Assembly: GCA_020912385.1 (NCBI GenBank)
Contig: CP087208.1
Span: 1,488,001 to 1,552,000, forward strand
Origin: Neofusicoccum parvum
Lineage: Eukaryota; Ascomycota; Dothideomycetes; Botryosphaeriales; Botryosphaeriaceae
DNA: 64,000 nucleotides
Direction: 5' to 3'
Each line of letters opens with the position of its first letter. Positions within the stretch are counted from its first letter, which is position 1. Made by a program: the position numbers and the translations under genes. Shown here in pieces: positions 37 to 33,615 of the stretch. The notes below the pieces were generated by a model, which did not search any database, was not told the DNA's origin, and saw nothing but the letters and a program-made list of their open reading frames with translations.

Positions 37-838
37 ATGAAGTTCACCTACGCCGCTCTCGCCGCTGGCCTGGCTAGCCTCGCCAGCGCGCAGTCGCTCG
101 CCATTCCCGCCCGTGTTGGCGCTGTCAACACCATCAACAAGCCAATTGAGATCGACGGCCCTCGCGACTTCGGCAACGCCGAGTACACCCGTGGCATGAA
201 GTGCGTGCCCAACCCGAAGGACACGGGCAGCAACAACGCTGTCTTTGTCCTGAAGCCGGGCGCGGCTATTTCCAATGTCATCATTGGCGCCGATTCCTGG
301 GAGGGTATCCACTGTCTGGGCTCTTGCACCATTACGAACGTCTGGTTCCGCGACGTCTGCGAAGGTAAGTCGATTTCCAATCCGTCCTCCACCTGCGCCA
401 GGACGGCTGCTAACCAACATTACAGATGCTATTTCCGCCCTCGGGCCGGGCAAGGTCACCATCAACGGCGGCGGCGCCCAGGACGCCCAGGACAAGATCA
501 TCCAGGCCAACGGCAAGGGCCTCACCATCGAGGTCAACCGCTTCACGGCTCTCAGGAGCGGTAAGCTCATCCGCAGCTGCGGCGACTGCACCGGCAACGG
601 CGGCCCGCGTAACTTCATCCTCAACAACGTCAGGGCCTACGGCATGACCTCCGCTCTCGTCGGCATCAACTCCAACTACGGCGACTCCGCCACCATCACC
701 AACACCTGCGGCAGCGGCAAGAAGGTCTGCCAGGACTACCTCGGCGTCGAGAAGGGCAAGGGCAAGAGCGACGAGGTTGCCACTACCCACAAGTGCCTCG
801 GACCCCAGGGAAAGCTTACCTCCATCCCTGCCTGCTAA
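37..838 (+). CDS. Secreted pectate lyase, PL3 family (two exons)
   Basis: Predicted extracellular pectate lyase that cleaves de-esterified pectin by beta-elimination. Exons are 37-364 and 426-838, separated by a 61-base intron (GTAAGT donor, TTACAG acceptor); the joined frame gives 246 aa, the usual size for compact fungal PL3 enzymes. Residues 1 to about 19 form a signal peptide ending in ASAQ. The mature part shows the repetitive beta-helix pattern of PL3, with family motifs GADSWEGIHC, CTITNVWFRDVCED and GGGAQDAQDKIIQ, and paired cysteines in RSCGDCTGNGG. The intron falls inside the VCED motif. The ATG lies 36 bases from the window edge, so the promoter is outside. A long open frame on the other strand is only a shadow of the GC-rich codons. 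Family identification is from recognised motifs, and activity is inferred. Confidence 0.93.
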
Positions 839-25682: not shown

Positions 25683-25687
25683 CTGAC
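25683..25687 (+). repeat. Target-site duplication, left copy (CTGAC)
   Basis: CTGAC directly precedes the 5' LTR and is repeated at 33611-33615 directly after the 3' LTR. A 5-base duplication is usual for Ty3/Gypsy integrases. Confidence 0.9.
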
Positions 25688-25792
25688 TGTTACGGCGCAG
25701 CCTTCACAGGCAGAGAGTTGAGGATCAACCCGACGGAACAGCGAGAAGTCGGAAGGCACAAAAGATCCGAGGTCACAAGACTCCTCACGTGA

Positions 25793-25814
25793 GACAGCAC
25801 GTGCGCCCCACTTG
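25793..25814 (+). promoter_or_regulatory. Paired CACGTG palindromes in LTR U3
   Basis: TCACGTGA (about 25786-25793) and GCACGTGC (about 25798-25805) are two 8-base perfect palindromes 4 bases apart, both with the E-box core CACGTG bound by bHLH-type regulators. A third CACGTG occurs near 26022. They precede the tandem repeats and TATA box and are present in both LTRs. A regulatory role is inferred. Confidence 0.5.
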
Positions 25815-25893
25815 TGCCCTCAATAAACGGCACGCCAACTTGTGCCCTCAAGTAACGGCACGCTCAGCGGTGCCCTTGAGGGACGGCACCACC
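25810..25893 (+). repeat. Three 28-base tandem repeats in LTR U3
   Basis: Units starting at 25810, 25838 and 25866 share the pattern ACTTGTGCCCTCAA..AACGGCACGC; the third is the most diverged. They end about 25 bases before the TATA box, the usual place for transcription-factor arrays in LTR promoters. The same array is in the 3' LTR. Confidence 0.75.
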
Positions 25894-25916
25894 AGATTGT
25901 TACAACTTTCCTACAG

Positions 25917-25924
25917 TATATAAG
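25917..25924 (+). promoter_or_regulatory. LTR TATA box
   Basis: TATATAAG in the LTR. A start site about 30-40 bases downstream would put the 5' end of the RNA near 25956, where GTGGTCAA matches the PBS. Confidence 0.7.
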
Positions 25925-26143
25925 CACACTCACTTAGCTAGATACTTGACCCTTCGTGGTCAACTTCGATAATCAATCTACACCATTGATTAGTAACACG
26001 GCCTTCGCACGCAGTGCTCAGTCACGTGTATTCGTTCACACTTGTTCTCTCCCCCTACCTTGTACCCACTCAAGGTAAACCCTACACGGCTTACCACCCT
26101 CTTTGGTGTTTGATCCTTAGGGGCAGAGGCCCGCCGTTACACT

Positions 26144-26151
26144 TTGACCAC
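26144..26151 (+). other. Putative self-priming primer binding site
   Basis: TTGACCAC begins 2 bases after the LTR and is the exact complement of GTGGTCAA at 25956-25963, the expected 5' end of the RNA. No tRNA-like TGG start is seen after the LTR. Self-priming is established for the Tf1/sushi group and used by many fungal chromoviruses; only 8 bases match here, so the call is tentative. Confidence 0.5.
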
Positions 26152-26220
26152 CATCCTTGCAAGGAAGGGTAAGAGAACATCGGGTAAGGTATCACCCCCT
26201 AACGAGTTTAGGAAACAGCA

Positions 26221-28194
26221 ATGAGTACGGTCAACATGGAGGACGTCAGCGCAGGACAGGATCGTCCAGCGATTCCTCAGACACCGGCTCAGGAGGCCGC
26301 TCAGCCTGCTCACCAGGAGCAAACGGAGCCTACCATGAGAGAACTCATGCAGATGATCCAGGAGCTGCGAGTCGAGAACCGCATCCTGAAGAACCGACAG
26401 GATCAGGCCACCGGGCCAGATGCCGCAAAGAAACCATCCGCCCAGGTCAAGGTGCCAAAGCCGGACCTTTACCATGGAGAGCGTACCAAGACGCAAAGCT
26501 TCCTCATGCAGTTGGAGGACTACCTACATTTCGCCAAAGGACAGTTCGGCAACGACGCAGACAAGGTTCGCTACGCTAGCACCTTCCTCCGAGGAGCAGC
26601 AGAGAAGTGGTTCAGACCATATAAAAGAGAGACTCAGGAGAAGCCGCATTGGCAATGGTCGCCTCAGACCCAGGCCATCTTCTCCGACTACAGGACCTTC
26701 GCCAAGCAGCTCCAGGAAGCGTTCAACGCGATTGACGAGGCCAAGCGTGCCAACCAAATCCTCTTCAGGATTCAGCAGAAGAAGTCAGTACTCGACTACA
26801 CGGCTGAATTCCAGGAAGCCGCCTACGTCGCAGGAGAACACTCGGACTACACACTCAGACAGCTGTACTACCGAGGCCTAAAGGACGAAATCAAAGAGGC
26901 TATGTCTTACCACGACGAACCCGAAACGCTCTCGGAACTAGTCCGCCTAGCCACCGATATGGATAGGAGGCGCACCAACAGGTGGTTCGAGAAGAAGGGT
27001 GGCTACCAAGCAAACACGAACAAGCCACGCCGCGAACGTACCACGCTGGAAGGAGGAGACGCCATGGCTCTCGACGCCGCCAACCGTCAGGACAAGAAAA
27101 AGGATAACAAGGGCCGGAACAACTACAACAAGAAGCCTAAAGGCCCGAATCCGAACTGGACAGACGAACAGAAGCAACGCTACAAGGATCGACTCTGCAT
27201 TACCTGCGGTAGCGACAAGCATTTCTCGCCTACGTGCCCGCAGAACCCTCGCAGGAAAGAAGGGAAGCAGACCTCAAGCGCTCAACGCGAAGCATCGGCC
27301 GTATCTCGCCAGGAGGACCACGACGCGCTAAGCTGGACGGCCTGCTTCAATGACGACTGTCAAACCCATCAAAGCGACAAAGACGCTACAGGATGGTACC
27401 CGAAGAAGCCAAGAGGCATCGCCATGCTTACCAGGAACGAGGAAGTACTCGACCTCGACGATATCATCGAGTCATTCCCGCACGACGACGAGATCGTCAA
27501 CAGTGAGAATGGCGAATTCTACGATAGTACAGAAGCCGAAGAAGACAGCTCCGACGAAAAGGACCTCGCACAAGTGGAGGAGAGCCCATTGGCAGGCGCT
27601 ATTAATAGGCTCCTTGAGAAAGTAGAGGAACACGGCATCATCGCTAAGATTCCCTTCCACCACGGCGAGTCGGAGCAAGGCATTTGGATCCCAGACAACC
27701 AGCCAGGACTCGCGTTAGTCACCTGGCAGGTACAGGAGGATCAGCTGTGGGAGACGCGTGTCTATGAGGATCGTCACACGGAGACAGACGAAGTCACTCC
27801 TGAAGATAATCTAGCGACCCAGAGGACACTCGCCCAAGAGGAAGAAAGGGCAAGGATGTTTCCTAGTATGGAAATAGCTGTTCCAGGCCTTAAGTGGAAA
27901 GCCCTTCGACAGATCCCAAGGCCGAGTCACCAGATCCTCCCAGAAGACGACGAACGCCTCAACCCCCGGCATAAGAAGCATCGGCAGATTGCATGGATCT
28001 CATGCATCGACCATCAGTGCAGGACGCACAGGCGTCAGAAGAATGAAAACCATTGGTTTCCGGTACGCGTACAGCAAGATGGGACGCACCGAGCTATCGA
28101 AGAATGGGAAATAGAGGGATGGGGACCAAGCGGATGGACTCGCAGCAACCTCTTCCTACTCTGGGAAGGCCAAAGGCACCAGTCAAAAAACTAG
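26221..28194 (+). CDS. gag: Retrotransposon Gag with CCHC zinc knuckle
   Basis: A 657-codon frame starting MSTVNMEDV. Residues about 85-270 hold the capsid-like retrotransposon Gag region (LYHGERTKTQSFLMQLEDYL, FNAIDEAKRANQILFRIQQ, YYRGLKDEIKEAM). A basic linker leads to a CCHC zinc knuckle CITCGSDKHFSPTC near residues 326-339, spaced C-X2-C-X4-H-X4-C. The extended C-terminal half, about 300 residues, holds an acidic segment and two related motifs of the form W-X2-C-X4-C-X2-H-X(7-8)-W (around residues 371-390 and 590-610). The stop TAG at 28192-28194 sits directly on the frameshift site. Packages element RNA into virus-like particles (family knowledge). Confidence 0.93.
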   Translation: MSTVNMEDVSAGQDRPAIPQTPAQEAAQPAHQEQTEPTMRELMQMIQELRVENRILKNRQDQATGPDAAKKPSAQVKVPKPDLYHGERTKTQSFLMQLEDYLHFAKGQFGNDADKVRYASTFLRGAAEKWFRPYKRETQEKPHWQWSPQTQAIFSDYRTFAKQLQEAFNAIDEAKRANQILFRIQQKKSVLDYTAEFQEAAYVAGEHSDYTLRQLYYRGLKDEIKEAMSYHDEPETLSELVRLATDMDRRRTNRWFEKKGGYQANTNKPRRERTTLEGGDAMALDAANRQDKKKDNKGRNNYNKKPKGPNPNWTDEQKQRYKDRLCITCGSDKHFSPTCPQNPRRKEGKQTSSAQREASAVSRQEDHDALSWTACFNDDCQTHQSDKDATGWYPKKPRGIAMLTRNEEVLDLDDIIESFPHDDEIVNSENGEFYDSTEAEEDSSDEKDLAQVEESPLAGAINRLLEKVEEHGIIAKIPFHHGESEQGIWIPDNQPGLALVTWQVQEDQLWETRVYEDRHTETDEVTPEDNLATQRTLAQEEERARMFPSMEIAVPGLKWKALRQIPRPSHQILPEDDERLNPRHKKHRQIAWISCIDHQCRTHRRQKNENHWFPVRVQQDGTHRAIEEWEIEGWGPSGWTRSNLFLLWEGQRHQSKN

Positions 28195-28243
28195 ACGGCC
28201 CTGCAGCCAAGGGACAACAGCAGGGGCCGCAGTCTAGGTCCCT
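28185..28243 (+). promoter_or_regulatory. Programmed -1 ribosomal frameshift signal (slippery heptamer plus pseudoknot)
   Basis: The heptamer A AAA AAC (28185-28191) lies in phase with Gag codons (AAA, AAC) and is followed at once by the Gag stop TAG. After a 4-base spacer, stem 1 pairs 28196-28204 with 28220-28229 (9 pairs, one bulged G at 28223). The loop segment AGGGAC (28210-28215) is the exact complement of GTCCCT (28238-28243), giving a 6-pair stem 2 and an H-type pseudoknot with connecting loops of 5, 4 and 8 bases. The same heptamer is a known retroviral -1 site. Pol continues in the -1 frame, which is open from 28053. Confidence 0.82.
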
Positions 28244-31200
28244 CAATATGGTATCACGCACCTCGAACACGGAAGCTCTCACCGGACCAAACCTATGGAA
28301 ACAATTCAAGACACAAGGGACACTTAACGGAGTGTCTATCAGGATCCTGATCGATACAGGATCATGCGGGAACTTCATTCACAACGAGCTTGTACAGAAA
28401 ATGAACATCCCCTACCGTAAGAAACAGGAGCCCTACCCTCTTAGCGGGTTTGATGGCTCCCAAGCAGCCTATGGAGAAGGCTGGGTAAATATAGAAACGG
28501 AGGAAGCAACCCTCCAGATAGGGAACCATCAGGAACGGATTTCCCTCGACGTCCAACGCGTCCCCGGGCATGATATCATTCTAGGAATGCCCTGGATTAG
28601 GACACAGAAACCAATCTTCGACTTTGGAAGAGGAGACTCCATCATCTTTCAAGAGGACCTTGAAAACCTCTTACGAAAACAAGGGCTGGAGAAAGAAAAC
28701 GGGTTGTTAGACACCCTAAGGAAACTCCTAGCAGCATCAACACGGGAAGTAGCCAGTGTAAGGCCTGAATGTGGCAACTGTGTAGGCAACTCCGACAGTG
28801 GTATAAGTCAGGACCAGGACTGCGACGCAGGTAGCGAAGCCTCCTCGGTAAAATGCAGCCCATCGGCAGGAATAAGCCCTACTGAGCGAAACGATACCCC
28901 CACTGGTACGGTCAACCAGGATAGCATAAGACCCAGCGACGGCAACATCAACGGCCACCTCGAGGACGGAATAAGCCAGAACCAGGACAGCAACGAGGCC
29001 TCCTCGGTAAAATGCAACACCTCGAGCGGAGTAAGACCAACCCAGACCGACACTTCTCAGGAACCAGAAGTACAACACACGACACGAAGGACTACGAGGA
29101 AGCGGCGTAAGGCTAAAAGTAAGGCTTCGCGTAAGCAATTAGCAGCCCTAGAACCTCAAATCGACGTCCAGATAATCTCAGGAGAGGCATTCAAGCGTAT
29201 GAGACGCCAAAGACATCAGGTCTGCCTTATGTACATCAAACCCTCACAGGCAGTGCAGCAACGAGCACTGGCTAAGGCCCAAAGAGAAAGGCTAAAGAAT
29301 GAGGACACTCCCGCTCCTCTAGGAGGAGATGATCCCGCGAGGGTCGTAAAGGGACAACACGGCAGTCTAGAAATATGGAACAACCCGTATGGATATCCTC
29401 CGATACCCGAAATGGAAACGGTACCCAGCGAGTACTGGGATCTACAGGCCGTTTGCCAGGAAAGAGGAAAAGAAGACTTGCCTAAGCATCAGCCGTGGGA
29501 CCACGAAATCCCACTTAAGCCAGGCACGAAACCAGCCTACAAGCCCATCTACTCCTTATCAGAAAAGGAGATGACAGCACTCAGGGACTACATCGAGAAG
29601 AACCTCGAACGAGGATATATCCGACCTTCAACGTCATCAGCCGGATACCCAATCCTCTTTGTCCCGAAGAAGAACGGCAAGCTACGCCTATGTGTCGATT
29701 ACCGACAGCTAAACGACATCACGATCAAGAACCGGTACCCTCTCCCTCGCATCGACGAGCTCCAGGACAAGTTAAGGAAAGCAAAGTACTTCACGAAGCT
29801 GGACCTCCGGGACGGATACCATCTGGTTAGGATTAAAGAAGGGGAAGAATGGAAAACAGCCTTTAGAACGAGGCTAGGACTCTACGAGTACACGGTAATG
29901 CCATTTGGGCTTACCAACGCTCCGGCAACATTCCAGAATCTCGTCAACGACACACTACGAGAATACCTGGATATCTTCTGTATGGCTTATCTCGACGACA
30001 TCCTCATCTTTTCGGAAACCCTTGAGGAACACAAGAAGCATGTCAGAAAGGTCCTAGAAGCCCTCCAAGCAAAGAACCTCTCTATCGCACCCGAGAAGTG
30101 CGAATGGCACGTCCAGAGGACAGAATTCTTAGGCTTTATTATCACCCCAGGTCACGTCGGCATGGACGACTCGAAACTGGATTCTATTAGGGAATGGCCA
30201 GTACCACGAACAATCAAGGAAGTACAGTCCTTCCTAGGATTCGCGAACTTCTACAGGAAGTTCATCTGGAACTACTCCGGAGTTACGGAACCTTTAACTA
30301 GGCTTACGCGAAAGGAGCATGGCTTTAAATGGGAAGACGATCAGCAACGGGCATTTGACTCGCTCAAACGGATGTTTTGCGAAGCCCCAGTACTCGGGAT
30401 ATACGACCCCGATAAGCCCACCGAAGTGGAAACTGATGCGTCAGGATTCGCCCTTGGAGCATGTCTCAGCCAGCCTGATGAAGAAGGCAGATGGCACCCA
30501 GTCGCGTTCTACTCACGGAAGTTCACCCCGGCAGAGCTCAACTACGACATTCACGATAAAGAGCTTCTGGCCATTGTCTCAGCATTTAAGCAATGGAGAC
30601 ATTACCTCGAAGGAGCAAGCCACCAGGTGGTAGTACGCTGTGATCATCAGAATCTCACACGCTTCACCACGACCAAGGAATTGAACCGACGGCAGGTTCG
30701 CTGGTCAGAAGAAATGGCCTCCTATGACTTCAAGATCACCTACAGAAAGGGATCTGATAACGCCGCAGCTGACGCGCTCAGCCGAAGAGTGGATTATATG
30801 GAAGGAAAAACCGAGCCGCACCCTGCAATCTTTACAGCGGATAGCGATGGATCGCTTCTCCTTACCAGACAGACGCTACCTATGCTACGCATCGAGCCAA
30901 ACCCATGGCACCAGAAGATCCGAGAAGCATACGCCCAGGACTCCTTCGCGCAGGAACTTTTGACGCTTGAGGACGACCCGCGTATTGCTCGAGATAGAGA
31001 AGGAACGCTTCTCTTTAAAGGACTCATCTATGTACCAACACGGCTACGAGAAGCACTGGTAAAAGACATCCACGAAGCCCCAGCACACGGACATCAGGGC
31101 ATCGACAGGACAACAGAAAGAATCACGAGGAACTATTACTTCCCAGGACTGAGGAAAACCGTACAGCGTGTAGTCTCGCAGTGCGATCTTTGCATCAGAA

Positions 31201-33392
31201 GCAAGGCCGCGACACATGCACCTTATGGTCTCCTACAGCCGCTGGAAGCACCTAAGCGACCATGGCAGTCCATCACGTTGGACTTCGTTACCAAGTTACC
31301 TAGGTCAAAAGATCCTCTCACAGGAGTCTCGTACGACTCGATTCTCGTCTTCGTCGACCGACTTACGAAGTACGCATACTTCCTACCCTACCTCGAGGCA
31401 TCCAACGCAGAACAGCTCGCCTACACGTTCCTCCGAACCATCTTCGCGGATCATGGAATGCCGGAAGAAATGGTGTCGGACAGAGATAAGCTCATGGCCT
31501 CTGAATTCTGGCAAACAGTTATGCGCCAACTAGGAACGAAGAGCAAGCTCGCCACCACAGCACACGCGCAAACCGACGGTCAAACTGAACGAATGAACCG
31601 GACCCTTGAACAATACCTCCGCTGTTATATCAACTACCCACAGGAGAACTGGGCAGAACTGCTACCTATGGCCCAATTCGCCTACAACAGCTCCAAACAA
31701 GAATCCACGAACGAATCACCGTTCTTCGCCAATTACGGGTTTGAACCAGAAGCCTATAGGGAAACGATCCCAAGCAGAAAGCTAGCGCAAAGTGGTATCC
31801 TTAAAGCCGAGCAGCTGAAGGAACTCCATAAGGCCATCAGCCTTGACCTCGAGTACGTCCGAATCATGATGTCCAAATACTACAACAGACGGCACCAGGC
31901 GGCACCGAACCTAAAGAGGGGGGATAAGGTCTATCTCCTTAGGAAAAACATCAAGACCAAACGGCCAAACGACAAATTGGACTTCAAAAAAATTGGCCCA
32001 TTCAAGATTGAAGAGAAACTTGGAGAAGTCACCTATCAACTCAAACTGTCAAACACAAGGATGAACTCCACCTTCCACGTCTCACTGCTCGAGCCAGCAC
32101 CAGAGGACGCCAACATCCCAGAAACCCAAGAAGAAATTGTACCAGAAAACCCGGACGCCGAAGAAAAACAGTACCCAGTAGAGAAGATCCTGGACTGTAA
32201 GCGATTCGGCCATCAGCTTAAGTACCTGGTCAAATGGGAAGGATACGGGAATGAGGATAACCAGTGGATACCTAAGGACGACATACATCCAGAACTGGTC
32301 ACAGAATTTCATCGCCAGAACCCTGACCTCCCGCGAAAACGAGGCCGCCCTCGAACGAGAAGGACGGAAAACCCTCAAGAACCGCCGGATCCAGTGCGAA
32401 GGGCGACAAACGAGCAGAATCTACCAGCTCAGGAGGACGAGGAGACCTCGTACCAGTCGCGGGCTCACCGGCAGACTCGGCGGACTCAGCCGACTGCGGC
32501 GCAGCAGGACCCACCGCCTCGTGACGTGGCCGTTCTGACACGGACGGACCCTCGGAAGTCGCAGGGTCGGGAGGGCCCCCAGAAGAACCAGCAGCTTCAG
32601 CCCTCTCGAGCTCCTCCAACGATTCGAAACCCTCGCGAATCATACGAGAACGACGCGACTGAAGGAAGCGCTGCTGTTTACGTAGGCGAAGAAGCTTCTC
32701 CAACGTTGCATCCTCCTCCGCGGCGAGACGAGCCTGCTCCCGTTCCAAAGAATCCACTAAGGCTGGTTAAGAACAAACCCGAGAAGACAGAAAGGAACTT
32801 ACAACGCGAGACACCCCGAAGTGCAACATCACACCCGGTCCGACGAGCCCCCAAACAGGCAGCACAAATAGACGGGTTCTCTTGTAAAGCCACGCACTCC
32901 GACTCGTGCTCCAGGCAATTAGCACAAGGAACCATCTCGACACCCCGGAAGAGGATCTCATCCAGTAGCTCCCAGCGACGAAGGGTGACCCTATTCACCT
33001 TACAAGGGCGAAGGTTAATAGCGGAATCTTCAGCAACACGTTTCTTCGGAGGCATCGCGGAAACTTACGAGAGAAGGAACGAACTAAGCGACCTACAGGA
33101 AGATATACCAAGAAACGGAAGAATCTTCGGGCCGAAGATCCTAAAGGGGGGGGTAGTGTTACGGCGCAGCCTTCACAGGCAGAGAGTTGAGGATCAACCC
33201 GACGGAACAGCGAGAAGTCGGAAGGCACAAAAGATCCGAGGTCACAAGACTCCTCACGTGAGACAGCACGTGCGCCCCACTTGTGCCCTCAATAAACGGC
33301 ACGCCAACTTGTGCCCTCAAGTAACGGCACGCTCAGCGGTGCCCTTGAGGGACGGCACCACCAGATTGTTACAACTTTCCTACAGTATATAA
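28188..33392 (+). CDS. pol: Retrotransposon Pol (protease, RT, RNase H, integrase, chromodomain)
   Basis: Read in the -1 frame relative to Gag; the start given is where slippage would place the ribosome. In order: aspartic protease with LIDTGSCGNF (about 28350); reverse transcriptase with LRLCVDYRQLN, MPFGLTNAPATFQ and YLDD (29988-29999); RNase H with EVETDASGFALGA (about 30430) and NYDIHDKELLAI; integrase with the HHCC finger (HGHQGIDR to CDLCIRSK, about 31090-31200) and the DDE core ending in DGQTERMNRTLE (about 31580); a GPF motif (KKIGPFKIEEKLG); and a chromodomain (YPVEKILD to WIPKDDIHPEL, about 32172-32310). About 350 further codons, basic and Pro-rich, run through the antisense gene and the PPT and stop inside the 3' LTR. 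That tail probably stays open only because of coding constraint on the other strand. Confidence 0.94.
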   Translation, partial: KLDGPAAKGQQQGPQSRSLNMVSRTSNTEALTGPNLWKQFKTQGTLNGVSIRILIDTGSCGNFIHNELVQKMNIPYRKKQEPYPLSGFDGSQAAYGEGWVNIETEEATLQIGNHQERISLDVQRVPGHDIILGMPWIRTQKPIFDFGRGDSIIFQEDLENLLRKQGLEKENGLLDTLRKLLAASTREVASVRPECGNCVGNSDSGISQDQDCDAGSEASSVKCSPSAGISPTERNDTPTGTVNQDSIRPSDGNINGHLEDGISQNQDSNEASSVKCNTSSGVRPTQTDTSQEPEVQHTTRRTTRKRRKAKSKASRKQLAALEPQIDVQIISGEAFKRMRRQRHQVCLMYIKPSQAVQQRALAKAQRERLKNEDTPAPLGGDDPARVVKGQHGSLEIWNNPYGYPPIPEMETVPSEYWDLQAVCQERGKEDLPKHQPWDHEIPLKPGTKPAYKPIYSLSEKEMTALRDYIEKNLERGYIRPSTSSAGYPILFVPKKNGKLRLCVDYRQLNDITIKNRYPLPRIDELQDKLRKAKYFTKLDLRDGYHLVRIKEGEEWKTAFRTRLGLYEYTVMPFGLTNAPATFQNLVNDTLREYLDIFCMAYLDDILIFSETLEEHKKHVRKVLEALQAKNLSIAPEKCEWHVQRTEFLGFIITPGHVGMDDSKLDSIREWPVPRTIKEVQSFLGFANFYRKFIWNYSGVTEPLTRLTRKEHGFKWEDDQQRAFDSLKRMFCEAPVLGIYDPDKPTEVETDASGFALGACLSQPDEEGRWHPVAFYSRKFTPAELNYDIHDKELLAIVSAFKQWRHYLEGASHQVVVRCDHQNLTRFTTTKELNRRQVRWSEEMASYDFKITYRKGSDNAAADALSRRVDYMEGKTEPHPAIFTADSDGSLLLTRQTLPMLRIEPNPWHQKIREAYAQDSFAQELLTLEDDPRIARDREGTLLFKGLIYVPTRLREALVKDIHEAPAHGHQGIDRTTERITRNYYFPGLRKTVQRVVSQCDLCIRSKAATHAPYGLLQPLEAPKRPWQSITLDFVTKLPRSKDPLTGVSYDSILVFVDRLTKYAYFLPYLEASNAEQLAYTFLRTIFADHGMPEEMVSDRDKLMASEFWQTVMRQLGTKSKLATTAHAQTDGQTERMNRTLEQYLRCYINYPQENWAELLPMAQFAYNSSKQESTNESPFFANYGFEPEAYRETIPSRKLAQSGILKAEQLKELHKAISLDLEYVRIMMSKYYNRRHQAAPNLKRGDKVYLLRKNIKTKRPNDKLDFKKIGPFKIEEKLGEVTYQLKLSNTRMNSTFHVSLLEPAPEDANIPETQEEIVPENPDAEEKQYPVEKILDCKRFGHQLKYLVKWEGYGNEDNQWIPKDDIHPELVTEFHRQNPDLPRKRGRPRTRRTENPQEPPDPVRRATNEQNLPAQEDEETSYQSRAHRQTRRTQPTAAQQDPPPRDVAVLTRTDPRKSQGREGPQKNQQLQPSRAPPTIRNPRESYENDATEGSAAVYVGEEASPTLHPPPRRDEPAPVPKNPLRLVKNKPEKTERNLQRETPRSATSHPVRRAPKQAAQIDGFSCKATHSDSCSRQLAQGTISTPRKRISSSSSQRRRVTLFTLQGRRLIAESSATRFFGGIAETYERRNELSDLQEDIPRNGRIFGPKILKGGVVLRRSLHRQRVEDQPDGTARSRKAQKIRGHKTPHVRQHVRPTCALNKRHANLCPQVTARSAVPLRDGTTRLLQLSYSI
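32299..33055 (-). CDS. Antisense spliced gene in the retroelement: Zn2Cys6-like module plus coiled coil
   Basis: Exon 1 33055-32803 and exon 2 32756-32299 join across a 46-base intron with GTAAGT donor and TTAG acceptor to give an exact 236-codon frame from an ATG (MPPKKRVAEDSAINLRP). Residues about 43-75 contain six cysteines spaced C-X2-C-X6-C-X9-C-X2-C-X7-C, which is the Zn2Cys6 spacing, but loop 1 is acidic (LEHESE) instead of basic. A strongly charged coiled coil follows the intron (SLEREQARLAAEED, EKLLRLRKQQRFLQSRR, EELERAEAAG), then a Ser/Pro/Glu-rich tail. It starts 102 bases inside the 3' LTR and overlaps only the Pol tail and chromodomain edge. I recall similar small cysteine/coiled-coil hypothetical proteins in other fungal genomes; function unknown. 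Possibilities include a regulator of the element. Confidence 0.72.
33123..33139. repeat. 17-base near-palindrome beside the polypurine tract
   Basis: ATCTTCGG, a central G, then CCGAAGAT: a perfect 8-base inverted repeat 3 bases before the PPT. Confidence 0.6.
33143..33153 (+). other. Polypurine tract
   Basis: AAAGGGGGGGG followed by TAG and then the TG of the 3' LTR at 33157; the expected plus-strand primer of reverse transcription. Confidence 0.85.
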
Positions 33393-33610
33393 GCACACTC
33401 ACTTAGCTAGATACTTGACCCTTCGTGGTCAACTTCGATAATCAATCTACACCATTGATTAGTAACACGGCCTTCGCACGCAGTGCTCAGTCACGTGTAT
33501 TCGTTCACACTTGTTCTCTCCCCCTACCTTGTACCCACTCAAGGTAAACCCTACACGGCTTACCACCCTCTTTGGTGTTTGATCCTTAGGGGCAGAGGCC
33601 CGCCGTTACA
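33157..33610 (+). repeat. 3' LTR
   Basis: 454 bases, no difference from the 5' LTR seen on reading. Contains the end of the Pol frame (stop at 33390-33392) within U3. Confidence 0.95.
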
Positions 33611-33615
33611 CTGAC
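33611..33615 (+). repeat. Target-site duplication, right copy (CTGAC)
   Basis: Matches the left copy at 25683-25687. Confidence 0.9.

Follow-up and report, generated by a model that had tools for sequence, protein, structure and literature searches.

The stretch of DNA analysed here, referred to as the window, comprises 64,000 nucleotides (nt) of the Neofusicoccum parvum genome (GenBank assembly GCA_020912385.1, contig CP087208.1, positions 1,488,001 to 1,552,000) and contains a 7.9-kb Ty3/gypsy chromovirus with gag, pol, and two long terminal repeats (LTRs). Opposite the end of pol lies a spliced gene of two exons, read antisense to the element, and the U3 region of each LTR carries an array of repeated half-sites with a 28 bp period (Table 1). 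The gene is conserved and selected in its own frame, and it varies together with the U3 array among subfamilies that otherwise share the same backbone. This suggests that the element carries a regulator and the sites to which it would bind as an exchangeable unit.

Table 1. Features of the chromovirus and its antisense gene (window coordinates)
Feature	Position	Strand	Remarks
Chromovirus	25688-33610		Ty3/gypsy
Target duplication CTGAC	25683-25687 and 33611-33615		5' side and 3' side
5' LTR	25688-26141	+	454 nt, sequence identical to 3' LTR
Half-site array	25814-25889		U3 of 5' LTR; three GTGCC-N10-GGCAC pairs
gag open reading frame (ORF)	26221-28194	+	Ty3_capsid / Retrotrans_gag; from ORF list and Pfam
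pol frame	28053-33392	+	protease, reverse transcriptase, RNase H, integrase, chromodomain
Chromodomain	about 32175-32316		within pol
Antisense exon 2	32299-32756	-	coiled coil, basic KR/RPR-type motif, acidic-hydrophobic C-terminus
Predicted intron	32757-32802	-	46 nt, phase 1, GTAAGT...CTTAAC...TTAG
Antisense exon 1	32803-33055	-	253 nt; start codon and six-cysteine DNA-binding-like domain
Palindrome	33123-33139		ATCTTCGG-G-CCGAAGAT; immediately 5' of polypurine tract
Polypurine tract	33143-33153	+	from sequence
3' LTR	33157-33610	+	454 nt
U3 of 3' LTR	33157 to about 33385		
Half-site array	33283-33358		U3 of 3' LTR; GTGCC 33283, GGCAC 33298, GTGCC 33311, GGCAC 33326, GTGCC 33339, GGCAC 33354; 228-303 nt upstream of antisense start codon
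TATATAA	33386		3' LTR

The gene model of a preliminary description, made from the sequence of the window alone, was reproduced exactly. Two exons separated by a predicted intron (GTAAGT...TTCTTAACCAGCCTTAG) give 236 codons plus stop, and the 3' end of exon 2 overlaps the chromodomain end of pol. Also reproduced were the six cysteines and the acidic first loop, which form the pattern CX2CX6CX9CX2CX7C (C44, C47, C54, C64, C67, and C75) with the loop LEHESE. Zn2Cys6 domains follow the spacing rule CX2CX6CX5-12CX2CX6-8C, and the window protein satisfies it, as do 39 of 103 collected relatives when it is applied strictly and 67 of 103 with a looser second spacing. Structure prediction for the family suggests a Zn2Cys6-like cluster with a long helix after it. 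The Foldseek matches were PUT3 and Pho7 alone, neither of them significant, and the top two rows of a second structure comparison were long-helix matches (KAP1 and a nuclear pore chain). A sequence search of the PDB with the single window protein returned four bicaudal-D coiled-coil matches only, none significant, and neither the window protein nor ten further family members matched Transposase_28 (PF04195), even with E allowed up to 10. The C-termini are acidic and hydrophobic in the ten family proteins inspected. The gene probably encodes a minimal Gal4-type, zinc-cluster-like dimer.

Is this gene a peculiarity of one copy? The 44 Mb genome (18 contigs) was searched with the 3' end of the element, and 30 loci were fetched from the 47 matches listed. 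An open six-cysteine antisense frame is present in 23 of these 30, representing nine different sequences, and the gene recurs in those non-decayed subfamilies of the chromovirus that were examined, so that homologs do lie antisense at the 3' end of related elements. Such a frame is missing from L005, L019, L021, L026, L027, L029, and L030, and a copy fetched twice (L020 and L022) has an in-frame stop in exon 1 ahead of the cysteine motif. A second chromovirus lineage, 58-62% identical over the integrase-end/chromodomain stretch, also has the gene (L061, L062, and L063, 3/3 fetched). In three more distant families (L064-L066, 34-39% identical over that stretch), the roughly 1.7 kb that follow the chromodomain hold no antisense six-cysteine frame. 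In 8/8 gene models (window, L006, L007, L011, L020, L023, L024, and L061), an intron of 44-48 nt in phase 1 occupies the same place; that of L007, with its weak donor GTCGGT, was picked by position and length. The six cysteines are invariant in 21/21 aligned sequences, which were preselected for having the domain and have a mean identity of 26%. Homologs are present in several classes of filamentous ascomycetes, and a scan of viral contigs gave five pattern matches and no relatives. A captured host gene is not supported, since the gene spans several subfamilies and a second pol lineage. One Pyricularia protein, P0063, appears, by eye and on one short motif, to continue into the reverse strand of a chromodomain core.

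Some individual copies have features of their own. In L061 the predicted intron has 48 nt, a length divisible by three, and contains no stops, so that the frame also reads through unspliced. L005, L016, L019, L021, L027, L029, and L030 have in-frame stops within or close to the chromodomain or exon 1 of the antisense gene; these copies resemble the products of repeat-induced point mutation, and identical fresh copies are found alongside.

The antisense frame is itself under constraint. In the best pair, L007 and L011, the ratio of nonsynonymous to synonymous substitution rates (dN/dS) is 0.156 in exon 1 and 0.143 in exon 2. By antisense codon position, the differences are 15/70, 8/69, and 35/69 in exon 1 (p = 7e-7) and 12/187, 17/188, and 48/188 in exon 2 (p = 4e-8). 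Could this be the shadow of a conserved Pol extension on a chance frame? The Pol frame of the window is open across the entire antisense gene, and in three of the elements (those of the window, L007, and L011) the third positions of exon 1 fall on Pol third positions. However, the intron shifts the antisense phase relative to pol, and the fastest sites of exon 2 are Pol second positions, a pattern not expected from constraint on pol. Exon 1 stands in a different phase to Pol in L006 and L020, and the open pol frame past the chromodomain is not conserved among subfamilies, ending at very different points. The antisense phase signal is also seen between the window and L020 (exon 2 p = 4e-4, weaker in exon 1 at p = 0.015) and between L006 and L011 (exon 2 p = 0.003, weaker in exon 1 at p = 0.054). 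Between the window and L006, L007, or L011, the exon 1 dN/dS of 0.63-0.75 (amino-acid identity 23-29%) is uninformative, because the synonymous rate is 1.3-1.7. The constraint thus sits in the antisense frame and not in Pol, and with the conservation of intron and cysteines it leads us to reject a chance frame, the likelihood of which we consider negligible. The preliminary description, which had argued against chance, was correct in this. The antisense RNA might alternatively be what functions, through double-stranded RNA or interference, with the reading frame incidental. PMC3658920 reports antisense transcripts, and also small RNAs, directed at Gypsy elements of fungi. This would leave unexplained the dN/dS of about 0.15, the third-position excess in both exons, the invariant cysteines, and the conserved intron phase, and is very improbable.

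In every U3 examined, the region upstream of the TATA box repeats a half-site of its own. The array of the window type consists of three GTGCC-N10-GGCAC pairs. There are seven TGAGC in each of L007, L011, L016, and L057, nine TGAAC in L006 (eight as direct pairs in alternating orientation), five CAGATC in L023, seven GAGCA in L024, three GGCGAC in each of L020 and L045, and six GGATCA in L055, an LTR with no known interior. When seven words were counted across 13 U3s, each was concentrated in its own class and occurred 0-3 times elsewhere, the exception being L026, with four GGATCA and only two CAGATC. The count of the top k-mer was compared with 300 dinucleotide shuffles of each U3. The 5-mer excess of the window was reached by 0/300, and in 11 of 12 U3s the top 5-mer was reached by at most 5/300. 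Among 209 segments inside the window's element, one has a 5-mer six times. Similar cysteine domains are paired with similar half-sites: L007 with TGAGC and L006 with TGAAC, L023 with a GATC-based and L024 with a GAGC-based word. Across seven cassettes, the identity of the cysteine domain correlates with array similarity at 0.50 (144/5040 permutations), compared with -0.06 for upstream U3 and 0.15 for pol. In class B the half-site columns are identical (30/30, 35/35, and 30/30), whereas spacers match at 34/67, 27/62, and 40/85, which is near chance; the seven half-site copies in each class B U3 are independent of the alignment. Upstream of the variable array (33157-33278 in the window and the same part of the other U3s), CACGTG occurs once or twice in 8 of the 9 U3s counted, being absent from L006; it is perhaps a constant host-factor site.

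Alignment of copies, with identity scored in 100-nt bins, shows where they diverge. Between L004, which is the copy in the window itself, and L024, identity is 93-100% along pol as far as the chromodomain, 36-54% over the antisense gene and U3 (with two border bins at 81% and 70%), and 100% past the TATA box. L007 and L011 compared with L023 are 88-99% identical in pol, 36-60% in the middle excluding border bins, and 97-100% at the end. In the pair L007 and L011, a 1400-nt stretch of pol is 99-100% identical (the preceding three bins being at 89-98%), identity drops to 63-76% from mid exon 2 into U3, and the end is 100% identical. The transition between L004 and L020 is less abrupt, with exon 2 identity of up to 92%, and the backbone of L006 is more diverged. 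From these profiles, the antisense gene and U3 change together as one block, against a backbone that the copies have in common. The pairs L004/L024, L007/L023, and L011/L023 show the joint replacement, on a conserved backbone, of a putative regulator gene and operator-like sites that defines a phage-immunity-like cassette, and several cassette types, with identical copies, are found side by side in one genome. This coupling to U3 lies outside the region covered by the preliminary description and formed no part of its reading.

What might such a cassette do? We favour, with a probability of roughly 0.6, the explanation that a small dimeric zinc-cluster protein, recognising the U3 arrays of its element's LTRs, acts as the regulator of that element, and that regulator and array are exchanged jointly. 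The antisense protein would bind the array in the 5' LTR and set the transcription of genomic RNA. It may also control its own gene through the 3' LTR, since the array there is situated some 230-300 nt upstream of the antisense start codon, where the antisense promoter would be expected. A single recombination in late pol would move the DNA-binding exon and the array together. Template switching between co-packaged RNAs during reverse transcription is a candidate route, in which one switch could exchange both because the regulator adjoins the array at the 3' end of the RNA. Subfamilies with near-identical pol would thereby gain separate, self-specific regulatory circuits. An accessory regulator had been suggested in the preliminary description; this is partly supported, in that the evidence favours a real antisense, element-encoded, regulator-like protein with predicted splicing.

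The sign of the regulation could be either. Because of the composition of the C-termini and the position of the array, activation of the promoter that drives genomic RNA from the 5' LTR is more likely. The same protein and sites could instead repress the 5' LTR and limit copy number, in the manner of superinfection immunity. The antisense placement, the presence of the element's own array in both LTRs, and the coexistence of several cassette types with identical copies would suit a repressor, and HBZ opposes Tax in human T-cell leukemia virus type 1 (HTLV-1). However, acidic, hydrophobic C-termini look more like activation, and an array upstream of the TATA box is placed like an activating sequence. 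We regard repression as unlikely.

Several results weigh against a self-specific regulator. The window protein scores 12.3 bits against Pfam Zn_clus (PF00172), under the cut-off of 21, which is also missed by all ten other family members or domains tested (best 15.4). For this reason "Zn2Cys6" denotes here a likeness in spacing and predicted fold, and literal Zn_clus membership is not claimed. The U3 of L045 has no 5-mer excess (101/300 shuffles), and only its 6-mer (6/300) and 7-mer (1/300) counts stand out. The class B contrast between half-sites and spacers is inflated by an aligner that anchors on half-sites. Two families without the gene served as controls for the arrays, L064 and L066, the LTR of L065 not having been located. 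L064 has neither gene nor array excess (181/300). L066, whose LTR begins about 150 nt past the pol match, too close to accommodate the gene, has seven CTAAG/CTTAG (253-490, reverse strand of the locus; 0/300 shuffles), and therefore arrays also occur without it. The correlation of cysteine-domain identity with array similarity across the seven cassettes leans on the L007-L011 pair, and with so few cassettes and a gene adjoining U3, linkage alone yields some covariation. Lastly, the choice of activator over repressor draws on composition, which is weak evidence.

Are the arrays, then, bound by host factors, with the protein acting in the nucleus at some other step, such as integration targeting, chromatin tethering, or host gene control? 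Retrotransposons commonly have U3 enhancers to which host factors bind. The adjacency of gene and U3 would account for their travelling together, and the array of L066 fits such an explanation. Against it, the words vary from one subfamily to the next while the likelier host site, CACGTG, is retained, and related cysteine domains accompany related half-sites. We judge this explanation to be quite improbable, and prefer the protein that binds and regulates its own LTRs.

The insertion in the window is recent, as its LTRs are identical and it is flanked by a target duplication. The gag product matches the WCCH motif (PF03716) weakly, at 21.2 bits and just under the cut-off of 22.4. Next to the polypurine tract, the palindrome of Table 1 has compensatory changes among subfamilies, with 3/7 pairs altered on both sides. 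In eight copies, one per type with L007 left out, 91% of 56 cells pair and the covariation score is matched by 0/500 shuffles. This suggests a conserved hairpin or dimer site.

If the proposed regulation is correct, LTR retrotransposons own swappable regulator/operator modules like those of temperate phages, and such modules define compatibility groups among near-identical elements. It would give a function to a protein family listed as hypothetical in fungal databases. Natural pairs of zinc-cluster-like domains and predicted targets would be material for studying changes in DNA specificity. It also offers a testable cause for the diversification of U3 alone beside conserved R-U5 and coding regions, for example in crapaud (PMC10787394).

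An antisense gene in a fungal element is already published. This is brtn, an additional antisense gene in Boty-like retrotransposons of Botrytis cinerea (Zhao et al. 2011, Virology 417:248), which likewise lies between pol and the 3' LTR of a chromodomain Gypsy element. The passages that cite it do not mention coupling to U3; no protein named BRTN was among the database matches to the antisense family, and the open-licence papers searched yielded no account of an antisense zinc-cluster gene tied to U3 arrays. Crapaud of Podospora anserina, also a fungal chromodomain element, has 14 subfamilies distinguished by U3 alone, with R-U5 and interior alike and the cause left open. Its LTR type is little associated with the interior, and the accessible text of PMC10787394 uses "antisense" 0 times. 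In passages describing the plant elements Retand (TRP28), Grande (gene23), and RIRE2, an antisense ORF between pol and the 3' LTR is suspected to encode a DNA-binding or nuclear protein. It is another kind of gene, with a Transposase_28 domain in Retand, a non-chromovirus element, and those passages describe no cassette with U3 sites.

The preliminary description likened the layout to that of antisense genes in some retroviruses, and this analogy is supported. HBZ of HTLV-1 is an antisense, spliced, coiled-coil regulator of the LTR, and the layout and splice sites found here fit this at the level of sequence. Unlike the present protein, HBZ is a leucine-zipper protein without a cysteine cluster, and we know of no swapping of HBZ together with its operators. 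Gal4, Put3, and Ppr1 share the cysteine spacing, the tentatively predicted cluster fold followed by a coiled coil, and paired half-sites. They differ in that the window protein falls below the Pfam cut-off and has lost the basic loop, the half-sites here are not CGG, and the gene is carried by a mobile element. By analogy, and with somewhat less than an even chance, fungal chromoviruses may in general carry interchangeable cassettes of an antisense zinc-cluster protein and a U3 half-site array, through which co-resident subfamilies would keep self-specific circuits as heteroimmune phages do. In lambdoid phages the immunity region, regulator and operators together, is exchanged whole while the backbone around it is shared. 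The proteins and the life cycle are unrelated to those of the chromovirus, and it is this joint replacement that the two have in common.

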